Source: an uncultured Olsenella sp.
GTDB lineage: Bacteria > Actinomycetota > Coriobacteriia > Coriobacteriales > Atopobiaceae
Direction of reading: 5' to 3'
Length of the DNA stretch: 36,593 nucleotides
Assembly: GCA_900314575.1 (NCBI GenBank)
Contig: OMVS01000013.1
Location: 1-36,593, forward strand
A program made the translations under genes and the position numbers. Below are positions 2,326 through 15,555 of this stretch, one piece after another; position 1 is the first letter of the stretch; each line of letters opens with the position of its first letter. The notes beneath the pieces are model-generated. The model saw nothing but the letters and a program-made list of their open reading frames with translations, was not told the origin of the DNA and ran no database searches.

Positions 2326-2433
2326 GGTGGTTTGATTTCAGGACCGATAAGGCCCCTCTGGAGCACGTGGCCTCCGACATGGTCCGACAGGGTCGGCAGG
2401 GACCCTCTGGTAGGTCAGGAAAGGAAGGAACCG

Positions 2434-4551
2434 ATGGAGAAACTCTTCAGGGGGGTGCTCAGGCACCGCGTGGTCGTGCTCTGCGTCTTCCTCGCGCTGA
2501 CGCTGGTGAACCTCGCCTGCATCCCGCGGGTGGTGATCGACGCCAACATGAGCGACTACCTCCCGACGAGCGCCAAATCGTCCCAGGACCTCACGCTCAT
2601 GAAGGACGTCTACGGAAACGACATCCCCGACGCCCGCATCTACGTGACGGGCATCTCCCAGCCGGAGGCGGAGAGGTTCGCGGACGAGCTCAAGGACGAG
2701 GACGCGGTCGTCTCAGTCTCCTGGCTCGGCAGCCAGGTCAACCTCGACGAGCCGATGGAGGTCCAGGACCAGGACACCATCAAGGACTGGTACGACGGCG
2801 ACGGCTACCTCTTCCAGGCGGTGCTCTCCTCCGAGGCCGACCAGGCCGAGGTCGACCACATCCGCGCCATCGCGCAGGGCCTCGACGGCGCGCAGGGCGT
2901 CTACATCGACGGCTCGGCTGTCTCAGACGCAGCCAACCTCGCCTCCATCAACACCGACATGACCAAGATCATGGCGATCGCGGTTGTGGTCGTCTTCCTC
3001 ATCGTGATGCTCAACACCACGAGCTACCTGCACCCCGTCGTGATGCTCCTCACCATAGGCATCGCGATCGTCCTCAACATGGGCACCAACATCTTCCGCG
3101 GCACGATCTCCTCGATCACGCAGCTCGTGGCCTCGGTGCTGCAGCTCGCGGTGTCGATGGACTACTCGATCGTGCTCCTCACCAACTTCGGGCGCTGCCG
3201 CGAGCACACGGACGACCAATTCGAGGCCATGGTCGAGGCCATGACCAAGTCGTTCCCGGTCATCCTCTCCTCGGCGGCCGTCACGTTCTTCGGGTTCCTC
3301 TCGCTCGCCGCCATGCAGTTCCTGATCGGCGCCGACATGGGCATCGCGCTCGCCAAGGGCATCGTGTGCTCGTTCTTCTCCATCACGCTGCTCATGCCCT
3401 GCGTCCTCTACATGATGCGCAACCTGGTGGAGAGGACCACGCACAGGCCGTTCATCAAGTCCTTCAAGCGGATGTCGCTCGTCTGCCACCGCTTCGCCGT
3501 GCCCGCCCTCGTCATCGCCCTCGTCTGCACGGTGCCGGCGCTCCTCGCCTCTAGCTCCGTGAGCTTCACCTACGGCTCCAGCTCCAACATCTCGGCGACC
3601 TCGCAGGTCAAGCTCGACGGCGACGTGATCGACAAGGCCTTCGGGCAGTCCCAGACCTGGGCCATCATGGTGCCCGAGGGCCGCTGGTCGGACGAGAACG
3701 CCCTCGTCGACGACCTCAAGGGCCTACCCACGACCAAGAGCGTGCTCTCCTACGGCACGGTCGCGAGCTCCGCGCTGCCCTCCGAGCTGGGCGACGAGTC
3801 CGAGGTCAAGCAGCTCCTGAGCGGCGGCTTCAGCCGCATCGTGCTCACCTCCAAGATCCCGGACGAATCCAAGGGGGCCTTCGACCTGGTGGACACCGTG
3901 CGCAGGATCTGCTCGGAGCACTACGGCGACGACTACCACCTGGTGGGCAACGCCGTGAGCTACTACGACATCCGCTCGGTCACCACCTCCGACAACCTCA
4001 CCGTCAAGCTGGCCTCCATGCTCGCCATCGGCGCGGTCCTGCTCGTGATGTTCAAGTCCGTCTCCATCCCCGTCCTGCTCATCGCGGCCATCGAGGTCTC
4101 GATCTGGATCAACGAGGCGGTGCCCTACTTCACCGGGGAGACCATCAACTTCGTCGCCTTCCTCGTGATCGACGCGGTGCAGCTCGGCGCGGCCGTCGAC
4201 TACGCGATCATCTACACCGAGGAGTACCTCGCCAGGCGGCGGCGCATGGGCAAGCGCGAGGCCTCCGTCACCGCGATCGAGCACACCGCGCAGCCGATCA
4301 TGACCTCGAGCTCCATCCTCATCCTCGCCTGCCTCGGCATCTACCTCTCCGTGAGCAGCCCGATGATCTCGCAGGTAGGCATGCTCATCGCCCGCGGAGC
4401 CCTCATCTCCGTCGTCGAGATCTTCTTCGTGCTCCCGCTGCTCTTCGAGGTCTTCGACTGGGTGGTCAGGCACACGAGCTACAAGATCGGCTTCCTCGTC
4501 GAGGACAAGGGACCCAAGGACGCAGACCAGGCGCCGGAGGCCGCGCGCTAG
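2434..4551 (+). CDS. MMPL-type RND transporter
   Basis: A 705-residue membrane protein of the RND superfamily, MMPL branch, expected to export a lipid-like or drug substrate using the proton gradient. The layout is doubled: a first membrane helix at about 11-30, an outside domain to about 170, then a cluster of helices. After a second outside domain the pattern repeats in the C-terminal half. The proton-relay region of each half is visible as MDYS (242-245) and VDYA (588-591). I chose ATG 2434 because GGAAGGAACCG sits directly upstream; the longer frame from 2332 has no ribosome site and adds non-membrane sequence. It is followed 82 bp later by a secreted heptad-repeat protein and is divergent from a TetR regulator. 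The substrate cannot be told from sequence. Confidence 0.92.
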   Translation: MEKLFRGVLRHRVVVLCVFLALTLVNLACIPRVVIDANMSDYLPTSAKSSQDLTLMKDVYGNDIPDARIYVTGISQPEAERFADELKDEDAVVSVSWLGSQVNLDEPMEVQDQDTIKDWYDGDGYLFQAVLSSEADQAEVDHIRAIAQGLDGAQGVYIDGSAVSDAANLASINTDMTKIMAIAVVVVFLIVMLNTTSYLHPVVMLLTIGIAIVLNMGTNIFRGTISSITQLVASVLQLAVSMDYSIVLLTNFGRCREHTDDQFEAMVEAMTKSFPVILSSAAVTFFGFLSLAAMQFLIGADMGIALAKGIVCSFFSITLLMPCVLYMMRNLVERTTHRPFIKSFKRMSLVCHRFAVPALVIALVCTVPALLASSSVSFTYGSSSNISATSQVKLDGDVIDKAFGQSQTWAIMVPEGRWSDENALVDDLKGLPTTKSVLSYGTVASSALPSELGDESEVKQLLSGGFSRIVLTSKIPDESKGAFDLVDTVRRICSEHYGDDYHLVGNAVSYYDIRSVTTSDNLTVKLASMLAIGAVLLVMFKSVSIPVLLIAAIEVSIWINEAVPYFTGETINFVAFLVIDAVQLGAAVDYAIIYTEEYLARRRRMGKREASVTAIEHTAQPIMTSSSILILACLGIYLSVSSPMISQVGMLIARGALISVVEIFFVLPLLFEVFDWVVRHTSYKIGFLVEDKGPKDADQAPEAAR

Positions 4552-4633: not shown

Positions 4634-7600
4634 ATGACCAGCAGGAACGGCAGGAAGATGCAGGAGCTCTCGGGCGTCCCCAGCCTCGGCAGGAGGATCG
4701 CGGCCGGCGCCATCACGGCGGCGCTCGGCCTCTCCATGAGCGTCCCCTACGGCGCCGTCGAGGCGCTCGCCGAGGAGGCCACGACGGGCCCCTCCGACGC
4801 ATCGAGCCAGGACGGCAGCGCCAGCCAGTCCGCCAAGAACGAGATCGTCTACACCAAGACCGACGTCTCCGGCGCGAGCCAGGGCGTCTACGTGGTCAAC
4901 TCCTTCGACACCACGGACGCCGTCGACGTCTCCGACCCCGGCACCTACACCAGCGTCAAGAACCTCTCGACCTCCCAGCAGCTGACGAACGAGGGCGGCT
5001 CGGTCCAGCTCACCACCACGGCCGACAAGCCCTTCTACTACCAGGGCGACCTCGACTCCACGACCGCGCTCCCCTGGAAGGTGAGCCTCACCTACACGCT
5101 CGACGGCAAGCAGGTCTCGCCCGACGACCTCGCGGGCAAGAGCGGCAAGCTCGACATCGAGCTCAAGGTCGAGGGCGCAGACGACGACTCCGCCACCGCG
5201 GACTTCGCCAAGAGCTTCCTGCTGCAGGCGCAGGGCACCTTCCCCAAGGCGAACTTCAGGCTCGACGAGGCGCAAGACGCCACGACGGCCGAGGTCGGCA
5301 GCAACACCCTCGTCACCTACCTGGTGCTGCCCGGCTCGGACGGCGACTACCACATCACCGGCGACGCCCAGGACTTCACGTACGACGGCTGGCAGATAAG
5401 CGCGATGCCCCTCTCGCTCGCCATCGACGTGAACGACTACGACACCTCCGAGCTCACCGACGCCACGAGCGAGCTCGAGAGCGGCGTCGGCAAGCTCAAC
5501 GACGGTGGCAAGTCGCTCGCGGCCGCCCTCGGCCTCATCAACGACGGGGCCGGCAGCGCGAGCGAGGGCTCGGCGTCCCTGGCCTCCGGGGCGTCGTCCG
5601 CCAAGGGCGGGTCGGCGGCGCTCGCCGAGGGCGCGGCCGAGCTCAAGGGCGGCACGGCATCCGCCGTCTCCGGCACGGCGCAGCTCGCCGCCGGGTCGGC
5701 CACGCTCACCCAGGGCGCCGGCTCCCTCGCCAGCGGGCTCTCTCAGCTCCAGGCCCAGGGCACGAGCCCCGTTGCCCAGGGCGCGAGCGACCTCAAGGAC
5801 GGCACGGCCCAGGCGGTCGCCGGCACCGCCAGGCTCGCCGCGGGCGCGACCGAGCTCGCCTCGGGCACGAGCCAGCTCAAGGGTGGCGCCGCGGCGCTCA
5901 AGGCCAAGCTCCAGGACTCCCAGCAGGTGAGCCAGCTCAACCAGCTCAAGGAGGGCGCCGCGGCGGTCTCCGAGGGCACCAAGCAGCTGAGGAGCACCCT
6001 CGACTCCACGATACCGAGCATGCTCGGCTCCGCCAGCAAGAGCCTCGGCCAGATCTCCGGCCGCCTCGACACCATCGACGGCGAGGTGGCGACCCTCGAG
6101 GACCAGAGCTCCAAGGCGATGGAGACCGTCGGCGGCTACGCCACCAACGCCAACGATGACGGCTCCAAGGTCGCTCAGGACCTCCAGAAGCTCGGCTCCG
6201 ACCTCCAGGGCATCTCGGACGACCTCGGGTCCGCGGCGAAGTCCGCCCAGAGCGCGGCCGCGAGCGCCCAGGGCGCCGCGAAGACGGCGCAGGCGGCCGC
6301 CAGCGCCCAGGGCGACGTCTCCGGCAGCGCCTCCGCGGCCGCCACGTCCGCCGGCGCCGCCGCCTCTGACATCAGCGCCGCCAGCTCGCAGCTCCAGGGC
6401 CTGCTCTCCGACCCGACCCTGACCGACGCGCAGAAGGCCGCCATCCAGAGCGCCCAGGGCTCGCTGGGCTCCGCGCAGAAAAACGCGTCGAACGCCCAGA
6501 GCTCGGCCGAGAGCGCGGCCTCCGCGGCGGCCCCCGCGGCCGAGAAGATCGGCTCGGCGGCCCAGGGCATCGGAAGCGCGGCGAGCGAGATCGGCTCGGC
6601 GGCCCAGTCCGTCGGCTCGGCGGCCCAGGCGGCGAAGTCCGTATCCACCGACGCCCAGTCCTTCTCCAAGGACGCGGCCGCCCTTGCGCAGGACCTGCAG
6701 AACCTGCAGGCCAGCGCCGGCGGCATCTCCAGCATCACCCAGAGTGCGAGCGGCATCCTCGCCGAGTCCAGGGGCGTGGTCAATGACTCCAAGTCACTCG
6801 TGAGCGGCACGCAGCAGAGCCTCGCCCAGATGCAGACGTCCATGCCCGGGCAGCTCGACAAGCTCGCCGGCGGGGCGGAGCAGGTGAGCGACGGCGTGTC
6901 CCAGCTGGTGGGCAGTCTCACGCAGCAGACCGACGCCAGCGGCAACCCCACCCTGCTCGGCGCAGCGACCGCCCTCGCCGAGGGCGCGGAGAAGGTCGAC
7001 GGTGGCGCAAGCCAGCTCAAGGGCGGCATCGACACCCTCGGCTCGGGCGCGACCCAGCTCGACGACGGCGCCGCGAGGCTCGCGGCCGGCGCAAGCACCG
7101 TGGACGAGAAGGCCAAGGCAGCCGCGGCCGGCGCAGGCCAGCTCTCCCAGGGCGCCCAGGCGCTCGAGGCCGGCATCGACACGCTGCGCTCAGGCTCCAC
7201 GCAGCTCGACGACGGCGCCGCAAGGCTCGCGAGCGGCGCCTCGACGCTCGACGACGGCATGGGGACCCTCGCCGACGGCGCCGACACCCTCTCCAGCGGC
7301 CTCGCCACCCTCGCCGACGGCACCTCCCAGGCCTACGACGGCTCCAACACGCTCTCGGACGGCCTCCAGCAGCTCGCGGACTCCGTCGACGGCATGGACC
7401 AGAAGGTGCTCGACAAGCTGCAGGACACGATCGACGAGAAGCTGGGCCGGGGCTACAAGCTCCACTCCTTCGTCGACCCCGCCAACACCGACGTCAACGA
7501 GGTCGAGTTCGTCTACGTCGTCTCCGGCGTCTCGAAGCCGGACGACACGACTGGCGCGTCCTCGGACGACTCCGCGTCCACCTCGAGCGACCAGGGGGGC

Positions 7601-7657
7601 CAGTCGTTCCTCGACCGACTCGCCGCGCTCTTCTCCCATGACAGGCAGGACGACTAG
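4634..7657 (+). CDS. Large secreted Leu-x-x-Gly heptad-repeat protein (YhgE/Pip-like central region)
   Basis: A 1007-residue protein with a basic head, a hydrophobic segment at about 21-40 and an AxA-type site near residue 46, so it is probably exported. An N-terminal beta-rich domain runs to about 270. From about 275 to 930 it is dominated by heptads with Leu and Gly at fixed spacing (phrases such as ASGTSQLKGGAAAL), broken by an Ala/Ser/Gln-rich coiled-coil section around 530-690. This is the X-X-X-Leu-X-X-Gly repeat seen in YhgE/phage-infection-protein relatives. Unlike YhgE it has no C-terminal membrane cluster and ends in a Ser/Asp-rich tail, so it is probably not itself a transporter. 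It follows the MMPL gene, suggesting a periplasm- or wall-spanning partner for that exporter. Start: GGAG sits 10 nt upstream of the ATG. Confidence 0.85.
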   Translation: MTSRNGRKMQELSGVPSLGRRIAAGAITAALGLSMSVPYGAVEALAEEATTGPSDASSQDGSASQSAKNEIVYTKTDVSGASQGVYVVNSFDTTDAVDVSDPGTYTSVKNLSTSQQLTNEGGSVQLTTTADKPFYYQGDLDSTTALPWKVSLTYTLDGKQVSPDDLAGKSGKLDIELKVEGADDDSATADFAKSFLLQAQGTFPKANFRLDEAQDATTAEVGSNTLVTYLVLPGSDGDYHITGDAQDFTYDGWQISAMPLSLAIDVNDYDTSELTDATSELESGVGKLNDGGKSLAAALGLINDGAGSASEGSASLASGASSAKGGSAALAEGAAELKGGTASAVSGTAQLAAGSATLTQGAGSLASGLSQLQAQGTSPVAQGASDLKDGTAQAVAGTARLAAGATELASGTSQLKGGAAALKAKLQDSQQVSQLNQLKEGAAAVSEGTKQLRSTLDSTIPSMLGSASKSLGQISGRLDTIDGEVATLEDQSSKAMETVGGYATNANDDGSKVAQDLQKLGSDLQGISDDLGSAAKSAQSAAASAQGAAKTAQAAASAQGDVSGSASAAATSAGAAASDISAASSQLQGLLSDPTLTDAQKAAIQSAQGSLGSAQKNASNAQSSAESAASAAAPAAEKIGSAAQGIGSAASEIGSAAQSVGSAAQAAKSVSTDAQSFSKDAAALAQDLQNLQASAGGISSITQSASGILAESRGVVNDSKSLVSGTQQSLAQMQTSMPGQLDKLAGGAEQVSDGVSQLVGSLTQQTDASGNPTLLGAATALAEGAEKVDGGASQLKGGIDTLGSGATQLDDGAARLAAGASTVDEKAKAAAAGAGQLSQGAQALEAGIDTLRSGSTQLDDGAARLASGASTLDDGMGTLADGADTLSSGLATLADGTSQAYDGSNTLSDGLQQLADSVDGMDQKVLDKLQDTIDEKLGRGYKLHSFVDPANTDVNEVEFVYVVSGVSKPDDTTGASSDDSASTSSDQGGQSFLDRLAALFSHDRQDD

Positions 7658-7676: not shown

Positions 7677-8537
7677 CTAGCGCCTCCTGAGCACCAGGTA
7701 GGCGTTGAGGGAGCCCGTCCGGCCGTCGGAGCGGAAGCGGTCTGCGACCTCGACCCCGCAGCCGAGGTCGCAGACCAGGGCGTCCACCTCGTCTCCGGAG
7801 AAGCTGTGGCAGTAGCGCCAGGCGCCGGGCACCCCCTGCCACCCGAGCAGGTAGTCGCCCTCGCCGAGCGACCCCGCGCCGAGGCCGAGCTCCGAGGCGG
7901 CCTCGGCGGTCGTGCGGCGAGCGCGCTCGGCGAGGCCGGCGTCGCTCATGAAGCGCCAGAGGGAGACGCAGCAGGTCCCTCCCGGCGCGAGGCGCGCTGC
8001 GAGCGCGCGCAGCAGCCGGAGGCGCGCCGCGAAGGTCGGCACGTGGTGCAGAAAGCCGAAGCAGGCGACGAGGTCCTGCTCGCCTGCGCCCCCGAGGGCG
8101 ACGTCCAGGGCGCAGGATGCGCGGTCGTCGAGGAGGGCGCAGACGAGGTCGGCGCCCACGAGCCTCGCCTCCCAGCCAGCGGGCGGCGCCCAGCCCCGCG
8201 CCAGCTCGGGGCAGGAGTCCACCCCCCGGTAGCGCACGGGCTCCCCGGGAAGCTCGTCTGCGAGGAAGCGCGCGAGGCGGAGGTTGCCGCAGGCGACGTC
8301 GAGCACCCGGAGCGGGCCCGCGCCCAGCGCGCCGGCGGCCAGGCCCGCGTCCGCGAGGCAGCGCCGCCACCCCGGCCAGGGCGATCGGCGCGTAGAGGAG
8401 AAGGACGTCGCCTGCTCGCGGTAGAAGCGGGCGTTGACCTCGTCCATCAGCAGGGCGCAGTCGCGCCCCATGTCCCGCGCCGGCGCCCCGTCGCCACCCG
8501 CGCCGGGAGGCCGGCGCCCCTGTCTCTTCTCATCCAT
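7677..8537 (-). CDS. Trm9/ALKBH8-like SAM-dependent methyltransferase, probable tRNA wobble-uridine modifier
   Basis: A 286-residue class I methyltransferase. Motif I is VLDVACGN (78-85) and an acidic residue after strand 2 is D107 (GVDSC). Three features match the Trm9 family rather than generic methyltransferases: FSSTRRSPWPGW at 46-57 (yeast Trm9 has FSxTRxxPWP), a post-motif block LHHVPTFAARLRLLRALAARL ending in PGG (163-187), and a late RYCHSF (241-246) with an Asn-rich end. In yeast, Trm9 methylates cm5U34 made by Elongator to mcm5U34. Its divergent neighbour here is Elp3, the enzyme that makes cm5U34, which strongly supports the same role. No Trm112 partner gene is in the window. The ATG at 8537 lies 6 nt after TAGAAT, so the mRNA is probably leaderless; an internal Met at residue 23 or 31 is the alternative start. 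Confidence 0.75.
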   Translation of the reverse strand: MDEKRQGRRPPGAGGDGAPARDMGRDCALLMDEVNARFYREQATSFSSTRRSPWPGWRRCLADAGLAAGALGAGPLRVLDVACGNLRLARFLADELPGEPVRYRGVDSCPELARGWAPPAGWEARLVGADLVCALLDDRASCALDVALGGAGEQDLVACFGFLHHVPTFAARLRLLRALAARLAPGGTCCVSLWRFMSDAGLAERARRTTAEAASELGLGAGSLGEGDYLLGWQGVPGAWRYCHSFSGDEVDALVCDLGCGVEVADRFRSDGRTGSLNAYLVLRRR

Positions 8538-8543
8538 GAGGCG

Positions 8544-8549
8544 ATTCTA
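8544..8549 (-). promoter_or_regulatory. -10 element of the Trm9-like gene, leaderless start
   Basis: TAGAAT on the minus strand (8549-8544) ends 6 nt before the ATG at 8537, which places the transcription start at or next to the A of the start codon. No ribosome site is present. No clear -35 is visible. Confidence 0.55.
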
Positions 8550-8589
8550 GCAAGGCCGCGCCGGGCGTCGGGCCGGCACGTCCGGTCGC

Positions 8590-8595
8590 TATAAT
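8590..8595 (+). promoter_or_regulatory. -10 element of elp3, leaderless start
   Basis: A perfect TATAAT (8590-8595) ends 8 nt before the ATG at 8604, so transcription should begin at or within a base or two of the start codon. There is no ribosome site between them. The mirrored layout of the neighbour makes a divergent leaderless pair within 66 bp. Confidence 0.65.
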
Positions 8596-8603
8596 GCACA
8601 CCC

Positions 8604-10490
8604 ATGGAGGAACTACTGCTCGACATACTCGAACGCCTGCGCCGCGAGCCCGGCCGCGTCCTCGGCCCGGCGGAGCTCGACCGCGTCATCCGCGCCCACA
8701 ACCGCGGCGTCCACGACAACGCGCGCCACCTCTCCAAGCGCCAGGTCCTCCCCTACTACCTGCATGTGCGCGAGGCCGACCCGGAGCGCTGGTCCTCCTG
8801 GGAGGTCGACTGCGAGCTCGAGCGGCGTCTCGTGGAGACGCTGCGCCTGAAGCCGCGGCGCACCGCCTCGGGCGTCGCGACCGTCACGGTCCTCACCCGG
8901 CCCGCCCCCTGCTCCGGCAGCTGCGTCTTCTGCCCCAACGACGTGCGCATGCCCAAGAGCTACCTCCACCGCGAGCCCGCCTGCCGCCGGGCGGAGCAGG
9001 GCTTCTTCGACCCCTACCTCCAGGTCCACGCCCGCCTCAGGGCCCTCTCGCAGATGGGCCACCCGACCGACAAGGTCGAGCTCATCGTGCTCGGCGGCAC
9101 GTGGAGCGACTACCCGCGCGCCTACCAGGTGTGGTTCGTCCGGGAGCTCTTCCGCGCCGTCAACGACTGGCCCGGCGGCGACGGGGAGGCCGAGCGCCTC
9201 CGGGCCCTCTACCGCGAGGCCGGGCTGACGGACGACGCAGAGGAGCTCGCAGAGCGCGTCCGCCCGACGCAGGAGCTGGTCGACGCCGGCAGGCTCTCCT
9301 ACAACGACGCGGTGCGGCGCCTCTGGGGCCCGGGCGGCGACGGCGCGACCGAGGGGGCGCGCGCCCTTCTCGCCCGCCAGACCGCGACCCTCGATGAGCT
9401 CGCCCGCGAGCACGCGCGCAACGAGGGGGCGGCGCACCGGGTGGTCGGCCTCGTCGTGGAGACCCGCCCCGACGCCGTCACGCCGGAGTGCCTGAGGCTC
9501 CTCCGCCGCCTCGGCTGCACCAAGGTCCAGGTGGGCGTCCAGAGCACCCGCGAGGACGCGCTTGCCGCCAACGGGCGCAACACCAGCCTGGAGGAGGTCA
9601 GGCGCGCCTTCGCCCTGATCAGGCTCTACGGCTTCAAGATTCACTCCCACCTGATGCTCAACCTCGTGGGCGCGACGCCCGAGCTCGACCGCCGGGACTT
9701 CTCCGCCCTCGTCTCCGACCCCGCCCTCAGGCCGGACGAGGTCAAGCTCTACCCGTGCGCGCTCGTCCCCGGCACGCGGCTGGTCGCCCTCTACGACCGC
9801 GGCGCATGGCGGCCGTACACGGTGGAGGAGCTCGTCGACGTCCTGGTGGCAGACGTCCTCGCCACCCCGCCCTACATGCGGATCTCCCGCATGATCAGGG
9901 ACATAGGCGCGGACGACATCCTCGTGGGCAACAAGCACGCCAACCTGCGCCAGCTCGTGGACGAGAAGATCCGCACCTCCGGGCTCTCCCGGCGCGTCCG
10001 CGAGATCCGCTACCGGGAGATCGCGCGCAGGGAGGTCGACCTCTCCCGCCTCGAGCTCGTCGACGTCCCCTACGAGACGGACGTCACGCGCGAGCGCTTC
10101 CTCGAGTGGGTCACGCCCGAGGGGCGCATCGCCGGCTTCCTGCGTCTCTCCCTGCCCCGGTGGGAGCGGCTCCGCACGGACGAGCTCGCCACCAGGCCGG
10201 GAGACGCGATGATCCGGGAGGTCCACGTCTACGGCGAGGCGGCCCACCTCGGGCGCACGGACGCCTCGGCCCAGCACCGAGGGCTCGGCCGCGCCCTCGT
10301 CGAGCGCGCCGCGAGCATTGCCGCCGAGGAGGGCTACGCGGGGCTCTGCGTGGTCAGCTCCGTCGGCACGCGGGGCTACTACAGGGGGCTCGGCTTCGTG
10401 GACGACGGCCTCTACCAGCGAAGGGACCTCTCGGCCGCACCCGTGGCCCCCACCGGCGAGCGGCAGGCCGCGCGTGGCGCGCGCCCGTAG
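8604..10490 (+). CDS. elp3: Elp3: tRNA uridine-34 5-carboxymethylaminomethyl modification radical SAM/GNAT enzyme
   Basis: A 628-residue two-domain enzyme that makes cm5U at the wobble position of tRNA from acetyl-CoA by radical SAM chemistry. The radical SAM cluster cysteines are C103, C107 and C110 (CSGSCVFC), followed by the family signature CPNDVRMPKSYL. The barrel continues with LIVLGGTWSDYP, LVVETRPDAVTPE, KVQVGVQS and LMLNLVGATPE. The C-terminal acetyltransferase domain has QHRGLGRAL (557-565) as its acetyl-CoA loop, then a YYRGLGF ending. Length and motifs match standalone bacterial Elp3 of the type known from Dehalococcoides. No Elp1/2/4-6 genes accompany it. The start is fixed by TATAAT directly upstream (leaderless). 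A Trm9-like methyltransferase is divergent, suggesting a joint pathway to mcm5U34. Confidence 0.95.
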   Translation: MEELLLDILERLRREPGRVLGPAELDRVIRAHNRGVHDNARHLSKRQVLPYYLHVREADPERWSSWEVDCELERRLVETLRLKPRRTASGVATVTVLTRPAPCSGSCVFCPNDVRMPKSYLHREPACRRAEQGFFDPYLQVHARLRALSQMGHPTDKVELIVLGGTWSDYPRAYQVWFVRELFRAVNDWPGGDGEAERLRALYREAGLTDDAEELAERVRPTQELVDAGRLSYNDAVRRLWGPGGDGATEGARALLARQTATLDELAREHARNEGAAHRVVGLVVETRPDAVTPECLRLLRRLGCTKVQVGVQSTREDALAANGRNTSLEEVRRAFALIRLYGFKIHSHLMLNLVGATPELDRRDFSALVSDPALRPDEVKLYPCALVPGTRLVALYDRGAWRPYTVEELVDVLVADVLATPPYMRISRMIRDIGADDILVGNKHANLRQLVDEKIRTSGLSRRVREIRYREIARREVDLSRLELVDVPYETDVTRERFLEWVTPEGRIAGFLRLSLPRWERLRTDELATRPGDAMIREVHVYGEAAHLGRTDASAQHRGLGRALVERAASIAAEEGYAGLCVVSSVGTRGYYRGLGFVDDGLYQRRDLSAAPVAPTGERQAARGARP

Positions 10491-10948: not shown

Positions 10949-12499
10949 ATGACTCGCAAGATCGACATCTTCGACACCACCCTGCGCGACGGCGAGCAGT
11001 CGCCCGGCGCCTCCATGAACACCGAGGAGAAGCTCGTCATCGCCCAGCAGCTGCTCCGCATGCACGTCGACGTCATCGAGGCGGGCTTCCCCATCTCCTC
11101 GCCCGGCGACTTCCGCTCCGTGCAGGAGATCGGCCGCCTGGCGGGCGACGACGCGGTCGTCGTCGGCCTGACGCGCGCCGTCGACAAGGACATCGACCGC
11201 GCGGCCGAGGCCCTCTCGACCGCCAAGCGCCCGCGCATCCACACGGGCCTGGGCGTCTCCCCGCAGCACCTGCGCGAGAAGCTCCGCATCAGCGAGGACG
11301 AGTGCGTCGAGCGCGCGATCCACTGCGTCAAGTACGCCAAGCGCTACGTCGAGGACGTCGAGTTCTACGCCGAGGACGCCGGCCGCGCCGACCAGAAGTT
11401 CCTCGAGCGCGTGATCCAGGCGGCCGTCGACGCCGGCGCCACCGTCGTCAACATCCCCGACACCACCGGCTACCAGATGCCCGACGACTTCGGTGCCCGC
11501 ATCAAGGGCCTCGCCGACAACGTGCGCGGCATCGAGAACGTGACAATCTCCGTCCACACCCACAACGACCTCGGCATGGCCACGGCCCTCGCCCTGGCCG
11601 GCGTCAAGAACGGCGCCACGCAGATCGAGTGCACGATCAACGGCCTGGGCGAGCGCGCCGGCAACACCGCGCTCGAGGAGGTCGTCATGGCCATCAAGAT
11701 GCACGGCGACGAGCTCGACGCCCACACCGACGTGGTCACGCAGGAGCTCACCCGCGCGAGCCACCTCGTCAGCCGCATCACCGGCATGAACGTGCAGGCC
11801 AACAAGGCCATCGTGGGCGCCAACGCCTTCGCGCACTCCTCCGGCATCCACCAGGACGGCGTGCTCAAGGCCCGCGACACCTACGAGATCATCAACCCCG
11901 AGGACGTGGGCGCCGCGGGCTCCGAGATCATCCTCTCCGCGCGCAGCGGCCACGCGGCGCTCAAGCACCGCCTCGCCGAGCTCGGCTACACCTTCTCCGA
12001 GGACGAGTACGACGACATCTACAAGCGCTTCCTCGAGATTGCGGACCAGAAGAAGGAGGTCTACGACGAGGACCTGGAGTCGATGGTGCAGGAGCGCCAG
12101 CGCGAGGTGAGCGCCGTCTACACCCTGGACGCGCTGCAGGTCACCTGCGGCGACCCGCTGGTGCCCACCGCCACCGCCACGATCACCGACGAGGTCGGCG
12201 CCCAGCACGTGGTCTGCGCCACCGGCGCCGGCCCCGTCGACGCCGCCTACAAGGCCATCGACGAGGTCGTCGCCATCCACGGCGACCTGCAGGAGTTCGC
12301 AGTCAAGGCGGTCACCCGCGGCATCGACGCCCTCGGCGAGGTCACGGTGCGCATCCAGGCCGACGACGGCCGCGTCTTCACCGGCCGTGGCTCGGACAAC
12401 GACATCGTCGTGTCCTCCGCCAAGGCCTACGTCAACGCGATCAACCGCATGATCTCGACGCAGCGCTCGCGCGAGGACAAGGGCGCGCAGGCGAGGTAG
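10949..12499 (+). CDS. leuA: 2-isopropylmalate synthase
   Basis: A 516-residue LeuA of the long bacterial type, condensing 2-ketoisovalerate and acetyl-CoA in the first committed step of leucine synthesis. The TIM barrel opens with [12 protein letters not shown] (9-20) and contains the metal-binding HTHND (203-207) and NGLGERAGN. The C-terminal third, from about 390, is the regulatory domain where leucine binds, including the [10 protein letters not shown] and [23 protein letters not shown] blocks. Start: GAGAGGA precedes the ATG. It is the first gene of leuACDB and follows the leucine-rich leader peptide, so both attenuation and feedback by leucine are expected. Confidence 0.97.
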
Positions 12500-12540
12500 C
12501 ACGACGGACGCCCGGGCCTGGCAGGCACCGGGAGGCAGCA

Positions 12541-12571
12541 GGGCGGCGCCGCTCCGAGGGCGGCGCCGCCC
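12541..12571 (+). terminator. 11-bp hairpin between leuA and leuC
   Basis: GGGCGGCGCCG (12541-12551) pairs perfectly with CGGCGCCGCCC (12561-12571). It lies inside an operon and 18 bp before the leuC start, so it may act as a partial terminator or an mRNA-stabilising end rather than a full stop. Confidence 0.45.
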
Positions 12572-12589
12572 CACCTAGAGAGGGACGAC

Positions 12590-13855
<1,266 letters not shown>

Positions 13856-13894
13856 GCGCGCCACCTACGGCACCCACCCACAAAGGAGAAGAAC

Positions 13895-14398
13895 ATGCAG
13901 TTCAAGGGCAACGCCTTCCGCTACGGGCGCGACGTCGACACCGACGTCATCATCCCCGCGCGCTACCTCAACACCTCCGACCCCGCCCAGCTCGCCGCCC
14001 ACTGCCTCGAGGACCTGGACGCCACCTTCCGCGAGCGCGTCCGGCCCGGCGACGTCATCGTCGCCGAGGAGAACTTCGGCTGCGGCTCCTCCCGCGAGCA
14101 CGCGCCCGTGGCCATCAAGGCGGCAGGGGTCTCCGTCGTGATCGCGAAGAGCTTCGCGCGCATTTTCTACCGCAACGCCATCAACATCGGCCTGCCGATC
14201 ATCGAGTGCCCCGAGGCCGTCGACGCCATCGCCGACGGCGACGTCGTGAGCGTCGACGCCGACACGGGCGTCGTGCGCGACGAGACGAGCGGCGAGAGCT
14301 TCCAGGCACAGCCGTTCCCGCCGTTCATCCAGGAGATCATCAACGAGGGCGGCCTGGTCGCGAGGACCAGGAAGCTCCTCGCCGAGAGGGAGGCCTAG
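13895..14398 (+). CDS. leuD: 3-isopropylmalate dehydratase, small subunit
   Basis: A 167-residue small subunit, matching the short form that partners the short LeuC type. The swivelling domain shows [15 protein letters not shown] near the start and the conserved [13 protein letters not shown] block around residues 57-71. AAAGGAG is 6 nt before the ATG. The stop codon is only 2 bp before the leuB start, so leuB translation is probably coupled. Confidence 0.96.
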
Positions 14399-14400
14399 CC

Positions 14401-15555
14401 ATGGCGAGCAGGACCTACAGGATCGTCACGCTTCCGGGCGACGGGATCGGCCCGGAGATCATGGCCGAGGCCAAGCGAGTGCTCGCCAGCGTCGGCAGGG
14501 CGTACGACGTCGAGTTCGCCTGCGAGGACCACCTGATCGGCGGCGCCGCCATAGACGCCACCCGCACCGCGGGCGGCCCCGTCTCCGCCCTGCCCGACGA
14601 GACCCTCGAGGCCGCGCGCGCGGCTGACGCGGTCCTTCTGGCCGCGGTGGGCGGCCCCAAGTGGAACGACACCACGCCGGGCGCCGTCAGGCCCGAGCAG
14701 GGGCTCCTCGCCATCCGCAAGCAGCTGGGCCTCTACCTCAACCTGCGCCCGGTGCGCGTCTACGACGCGCTCGCCCAGGCGAGCTCGATCAAGCCCGAGC
14801 TCCTCAAGGGGGTCGACGTCCTCATCGTGCGCGAGCTCACGGGCGGCCTCTACTTCGGCAGGCACGAGCGCAACCACGACGTGCCGGGCGCGGCCATGGG
14901 CGGCGGCGCGGGCGACACGGCGCTCGACTCCATGGAGTACAGCGAGCTCGAGATCGAGCGCGTGGTGAGGTGGGCCTTCGACGCCGCGGAGCGCCGCCGC
15001 GGCCACGTGACCTCGGTCGACAAGGCCAACGTGCTCGAGACCTCCCGCCTGTGGCGCGAGGTCGCCCACCGCGTCGCCGCGGAGCACCCCTCCGTCGAGA
15101 GCGAGGACATGCTCGTCGACAACACGGCCATGCAGCTCGTAGCCCGGCCGGCCCAGTTCGACGTGATGGTGACCGAGAACACCTTCGGAGACATCCTCTC
15201 CGACGAGGCGAGCATGCTCACGGGCTCGCTCGGCATGCTCGCCTCCGCCTCCCTCGGCGACGGCACCGCGCTCTACGAGCCGAGCCACGGCTCGGCGCCC
15301 GACATCGCGGGCAGGGGCATCGCCAACCCGATCGCCCAGGTCCTCTCCGTCGAGCTCATGCTCCGCTACAGCTTCGGCATGGACGAGGCCGCAGACGCCC
15401 TCGCCGGTGCCGTCGACGACGTGCTCGCCGCCGGCTGGCGCACGGCCGACATCGCCGAGGAGACCACGCCCGAGGAGCGTCGCCTCTCGACCAGCCAGAT
15501 GGGCGACAGGCTCATCGAGGCCTTCGAGGCGCGCGCGACGCACCAGGGTCGCTAG
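14401..15555 (+). CDS. leuB: 3-isopropylmalate dehydrogenase
   Basis: A 384-residue NAD-dependent beta-decarboxylating dehydrogenase giving 2-ketoisocaproate, the last operon-encoded step before transamination to leucine. It has the GDGIGPEIM loop near the start, GGPKWND, the ELTGGLYFG block, [14 protein letters not shown], and the substrate/metal block [23 protein letters not shown] with GSAPDIAG after it. I chose ATG 14401, two bases after the leuD stop; GGGAGG within the end of leuD is the ribosome site. The open frame extends much further upstream but only as a shadow of leuC/leuD. Confidence 0.96.

Follow-up and report, generated by a model that had tools for sequence, protein, structure and literature searches.

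A head-to-head pair of Elp3 and a Trm9-like methyltransferase as a predicted two-gene bacterial route to mcm5U34

We identified a pair of neighbouring genes, one for a stand-alone Elp3 and one for a Trm9-like methyltransferase, with which the bacterium studied here, like many other bacteria including numerous Patescibacteria, very probably builds mcm5U. The pair lies in the window, i.e. the whole stretch of 36,593 nucleotides that was analysed, and the two divergent open reading frames are present where the first-pass annotation had placed them. The methyltransferase gene (7677-8537, minus strand) encodes a Trm9-like class I SAM methyltransferase of 286 aa, the predicted cm5U34 carboxyl methyltransferase. 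The elp3 gene (8604-10490, plus strand) encodes a complete stand-alone Elp3 of 628 aa with radical SAM and GNAT/KAT domains, the predicted maker of cm5U34. The genes stand head to head, with an intergenic spacer of 66 bp (8538-8603) between both start codons; scanned for promoters and terminators, this spacer contained no sigma-70-type consensus and no terminator. Overall, the interpretation given in the first-pass annotation, a two-gene route to mcm5U34 (presumed there to do without Elp1, Elp2 and Elp4-6), is supported, with mcm5U as the inferred product. From sequence we infer the substrate, the product, the independence from Trm112 and the set of tRNAs modified.

In bacteria, the modification of the wobble uridine is generally presented as the work of MnmEG. 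In the pathway proposed here, Elp3 alone would use radical SAM chemistry and acetyl-CoA to place a carboxymethyl group on C5 of U34, giving cm5U34, and the Trm9-like enzyme would methylate the carboxyl group of cm5U34 with SAM, giving mcm5U34. tRNAs that are also thiolated by MnmA would carry mcm5s2U34; MnmA is present in the bacterium's own genome (324 bits), so this thiolation is possible. The pathway would need neither Trm112 nor the accessory subunits of Elongator, and would occupy the place that MnmE/MnmG hold in other bacteria. We consider it quite likely that cm5U34 is made by Elp3 and then esterified to mcm5U34 by the methyltransferase, with no need for Trm112.

The Elp3 protein scores 402.4 bits against TIGR01211, for which the curated cut-off is 350, and its Acetyltransf_1 (GNAT) domain also scores above cut-off. 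In a PDB search, its closest solved relative is DmcElp3 of Dehalococcoides (6iaz, E 4e-81). The cysteines C103, C107 and C110, noted in the first-pass annotation along with a GNAT domain, are invariant in 65/65 compared Elp3s, and the identification stands. Equally invariant are E286, K381 and Y383, which correspond by motif, and with the same E-to-K spacing of 95, to E207, K302 and Y304 of the archaeal Min Elp3, shown to be essential in that protein (PMC13315578). The window Elp3 is thus predicted to form cm5U34 on tRNA. Elp3s of the window's class additionally contain an insert of about 70-80 residues with a recurring SYN motif, located in the window at 9171-9386 (plus strand; Elp3 residues about 190-261), which neither DmcElp3 nor the Patescibacteria-type Elp3s possess. 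It may serve for docking or for binding tRNA.

The methyltransferase (METHYLTRANSFERASE; 7677-8537, minus strand) was less straightforward to assign to a family. Pfam gives only the general Methyltransf_23/12, and searches of NCBIfam and Pfam returned no named specific curated family. A single-sequence phmmer search against the PDB gave weak generic matches only and none to Trm9; since the window sequence by itself misses Trm9, a profile was needed. The profile of 33 homologues from the window's class (alignment A1), searched against the 177635 sequences of the PDB, found yeast Trm9 (5cm2_Z) first with E 5.8e-7, the runner-up having 1.5e-4. A search of the whole phylum turned up additional homologues, shorter and more distant, in another three families of members with small genomes; Elp3 is the neighbouring gene in two of these families, and in the third the contig is too short to tell. 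When these homologues were added to A1 (alignment A2), Trm9 was again first, with E 2.3e-19 and a runner-up at 1.2e-13. One distant actinobacterial homologue searched alone against the PDB also found Trm9 first (E 1e-17). The family is therefore nearest to Trm9 and does not fall in an unrelated one, a placement that the first-pass annotation had named as refuting its reading. Its three Trm9-like motif blocks (LHHVP, RYCHSF and one more) are all present as quoted and coincide with columns conserved across the family, and are therefore not chance matches. In a tree with outgroups, a long branch of 2.1 changes per column leads to the window clade, and the deep node that joins it to Trm9 has a low support of 48/7.

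Residues that handle the substrate in yeast Trm9 could be traced in the bacterial proteins. The mapping used a yeast Trm9 sequence that has the expected amino acid at each of the five published positions, so that it is adequate for this purpose. Mutating these residues, R29, H115, R241, Y243 and N271, strongly reduces both the activity of the enzyme and its binding of tRNA (PMC5372719). Their equivalents in the window are R50, H164, R241, C243 and N278. The equivalents of R29, H115, R241 and N271 are identical in 33/33 class homologues, and the position of Y243 differs from yeast, being Cys in all 33. In the genome-wide scan, which comprised 80 methyltransferase loci mostly from Patescibacteria, the four residues were retained at 79 (R29), 69 (H115), 71 (R241) and 74 (N271) loci, and position 243 was mostly Tyr, as in yeast (49 of the 80). 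The family thus spans both states at this position, and the window's class differs at one of five positions. On these computations, the window methyltransferase is shown to be a homologue of Trm9 with conserved substrate residues.

The AlphaFold2 model of the methyltransferase has a mean pLDDT of 92 and a pTM of 0.89, with low confidence in the first 20 residues. Because of this, and because most homologues begin near there, the alternative start at Met23 (position 8471) may be the true one. Both Foldseek and VIA identified a class I methyltransferase fold. Trm9 itself was not singled out: in Foldseek, 5cm2_Z (an incomplete Trm9 chain) is at rank 21, and in VIA, where METTL6 leads and CmoM (8joz, Z 17.2) is comparable, Trm9 is not among the best 50, which by itself rules nothing out. 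The fold is generic and does not decide among families; the sequence profile and the residues do. Strands 3 and 4 of the model are separated by an added helical stretch (residues about 129-152, 8082-8153; helices 131-136 and 140-148) that marks the methyltransferases of the class; in Trm9 and the Patescibacteria proteins, a short loop takes the place of the two helices. We speculate that these helices might shield the edge that is covered by Trm112 in eukaryotes.

Decisive for the proposed partnership is the linkage of Elp3 and the methyltransferase, which is a near-obligate co-occurrence in two phyla. Among the 149 surveyed genomes of the window's class, methyltransferase homologues were found in 62; a very weak match in G103 (E 6e-6) was left out of the class count. 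Both genes occur in 61 genomes, Elp3 only in one, the methyltransferase only in none and neither in 87 (Fisher p 1.5e-41, kinship ignored). Elp3 is therefore partnered by the methyltransferase in 61 of the 62 Elp3 genomes of the class, and in the sole Elp3-only genome it starts 1.16 kb from a contig end. The pairs are divergent within 6 kb in 57/61 cases; of the remaining four, two are close and reported in the same direction, and in the other two the genes are widely separated or sit on different contigs. One class genome has a second methyltransferase copy away from Elp3 (L013, G058:C4:255276-256127), reported with one internal TAA; it may be a paralogue that is decaying or has moved recently.

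A comparable picture was obtained outside the class. In a sample of 188 genomes from one class of Patescibacteria, 47 have both genes, three the methyltransferase only, five Elp3 only and 133 neither (p 8e-35, kinship ignored), so that Elp3 is found in 47/50 methyltransferase genomes. Here 42 of the 47 pairs are neighbours in divergent orientation, and convergent orientation is seen in four pairs that lie nearby, indicating that the pairing survives rearrangement. Of the 80 loci in the genome-wide scan, 63 have Elp3, with the two genes invariably on opposite strands, and 15 of the 17 genomes with no local Elp3 carry it elsewhere. The genomic survey suggested in the first-pass annotation hence revealed recurrent adjacency, with 57 class pairs and 42 Patescibacteria pairs divergent in two phyla. 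Two MAG contigs with other labels, L143 (Ignavibacteriales) and L182 (Lysobacteraceae), carry a Patescibacteria-type pair; as the L143 genome has MnmG and the L182 genome is only 0.7 Mb, binning or labelling errors are likely.

MnmG over cut-off is absent from 148/149 genomes of the window's class and from 45/46 distant carriers, the exception among the latter being the MAG labelled Ignavibacteriales. Since class genomes without Elp3 also lack MnmG, its absence is compatible with replacement and not specific to it, and serves as context rather than proof. The single full MnmG in the class (G071:C8:4785-6713, 730 bits) belongs to a genome without the Elp3 pair and could reflect transfer or assembly contamination.

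Other readings of the gene pair need to be weighed against this. The pair could make mcm5U34 with a methyltransferase that requires a partner, Trm112-like or other, which has gone unrecognised. Eukaryotic Trm9 and ALKBH8 do depend on Trm112 (PMC5372719), and small zinc knuckles diverge fast. We nonetheless think such a partner rather unlikely, because the bacterium's own genome, which is 96% complete, has no match to Trm112 (PF03966) in a search where control genomes gave the expected result, and only 3/46 distant carriers exceed the PF03966 cut-off, each inside a frame of at least 333 aa. These PF03966-like matches in some carriers, mostly within larger reading frames, mean that a diverged Trm112 could still exist; a clear stand-alone Trm112 is missing from the own genome and from most surveyed carriers, in line with the earlier suggestion that the route is perhaps Trm112-free. 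Alternatively, the methyltransferase may share only its ancestry with Trm9 and act on another Elp3- or anticodon-linked substrate, such as a different base or a protein. The change of Y243 to Cys in the class, the long branch of the window clade and the generic fold would all fit such a shift; we judge it unlikely, as the other four residues that orient the substrate in Trm9 do not vary in the window's clade and the enzyme almost obligately accompanies Elp3 in two phyla.

Finally, the enzyme could be of the CmoM type, converting cmo5U34 to mcmo5U34 and unrelated to the Elp3 product. CmoM likewise methylates a carboxyl group on the wobble uridine and shares both the kind of reaction and the fold (8joz, Z 17.2), but its sequence similarity to the window methyltransferase is at background. 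With the window-clade profile (A1), E. coli CmoM scores 6.3 bits against 36.0 for Trm9, and with the wider profile (A2) 22 against 83. The maximum over 1000 shuffles of Trm9 is about 8 bits. Moreover, CmoM lacks the FSxTRxxPW, HH and RYxH motifs, and the linkage observed is to Elp3. CmoM as the identity of the methyltransferase was rejected on these background scores, and the CmoM-type reading appears highly improbable. The predicted esterification of cm5U34 to mcm5U34 is the reading that we carry forward.

The predicted pathway resembles several known systems. With eukaryotic Elongator (Elp3) plus Trm9-Trm112 or ALKBH8-TRMT112 it shares the Elp3 active site, the equivalents of R29, H115, R241 and N271, and Trm9 as the best PDB profile match. 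It differs in having two genes only and no detected Trm112, and, in the window's class, in the Tyr243 to Cys change, the extra helical stretch of the methyltransferase and the Elp3 insert; thiolation would presumably be performed by MnmA and not by Ncs6/Urm1. Archaea, reported to be without Elp1, Elp2 and Elp4-6 (PMC7663514), have homologues of both Elp3 and Trm9, which cluster in Sulfolobus solfataricus and were predicted in 2008 to make mcm5s2U-like bases (PMC2584109). As in these predicted pairs (Haloferax volcanii, S. solfataricus; PMC2584109, PMC5372719), a stand-alone Elp3 goes with a Trm9 homologue; some archaeal Trm9 candidates are, however, fused to Trm112, whereas the window pair is bacterial, head to head and has no Trm112 found. 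Given that archaeal pairs were already predicted, the bacterial pair would extend a familiar type of pathway, in reduced form, to a further domain.

Among bacteria, the MnmE/MnmG route to cmnm5U/mnm5U (plus MnmC/MnmM) targets C5 of the same wobble uridine, with unrelated enzymes and chemistry, and MnmG is absent in carriers of the pair (45/46 distant carriers). The Elp3 of Dehalococcoides mccartyi is likewise a bacterial stand-alone Elp3, and the bacterial example that has been reviewed (PMC7663514), but it lacks the 72-residue insert of the window Elp3. That 2020 review confined bacterial Elp3 to one clade, Dehalococcoides, where xcm5U derivatives were without direct evidence (PMC7663514). 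mcm5U has been regarded as typical of eukaryotes (PMC2584109), and a 2017 review stated that genes resembling the Trm112-dependent methyltransferases (Trm9-like) are not detected in bacteria (PMC5372719), which agrees with the first-pass remark that no bacterial Trm9 counterpart had been described. No earlier report of a bacterial Elp3/Trm9-like pair was found in the literature searched, which included few subscription journals.

Across dozens of species in the window's class the Elp3 pair is near-obligate; in Patescibacteria it is common, and its carriers there are without MnmG. We think it probable that a widespread bacterial mcm5U34 system, in which a stand-alone Elp3 is encoded head to head with a Trm9 orthologue that needs no Trm112, replaces MnmEG in many Patescibacteria and several actinobacterial groups, and that mcm5U is no eukaryotic signature. 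If true, this would explain U34 modification in these bacteria, provide a minimal, Trm112-free two-protein model of the Elongator/Trm9 pathway, and bear on the origin of the eukaryotic pathway.

The surroundings of the pair were also inspected. A tRNA gene search of the window found none. On the methyltransferase side lies a gene (4634-7657) whose 1007-aa product contains long repeats rich in Ala, Gly and Ser and resembles YhgE/Pip-type proteins; this gene directly follows one for an MMPL/RND-like transporter (2332-4551). After Elp3 follows a leucine-biosynthesis-like cluster (10949-15555; isopropylmalate synthase, LeuC, LeuD and LeuB), seemingly unrelated to Elp3.
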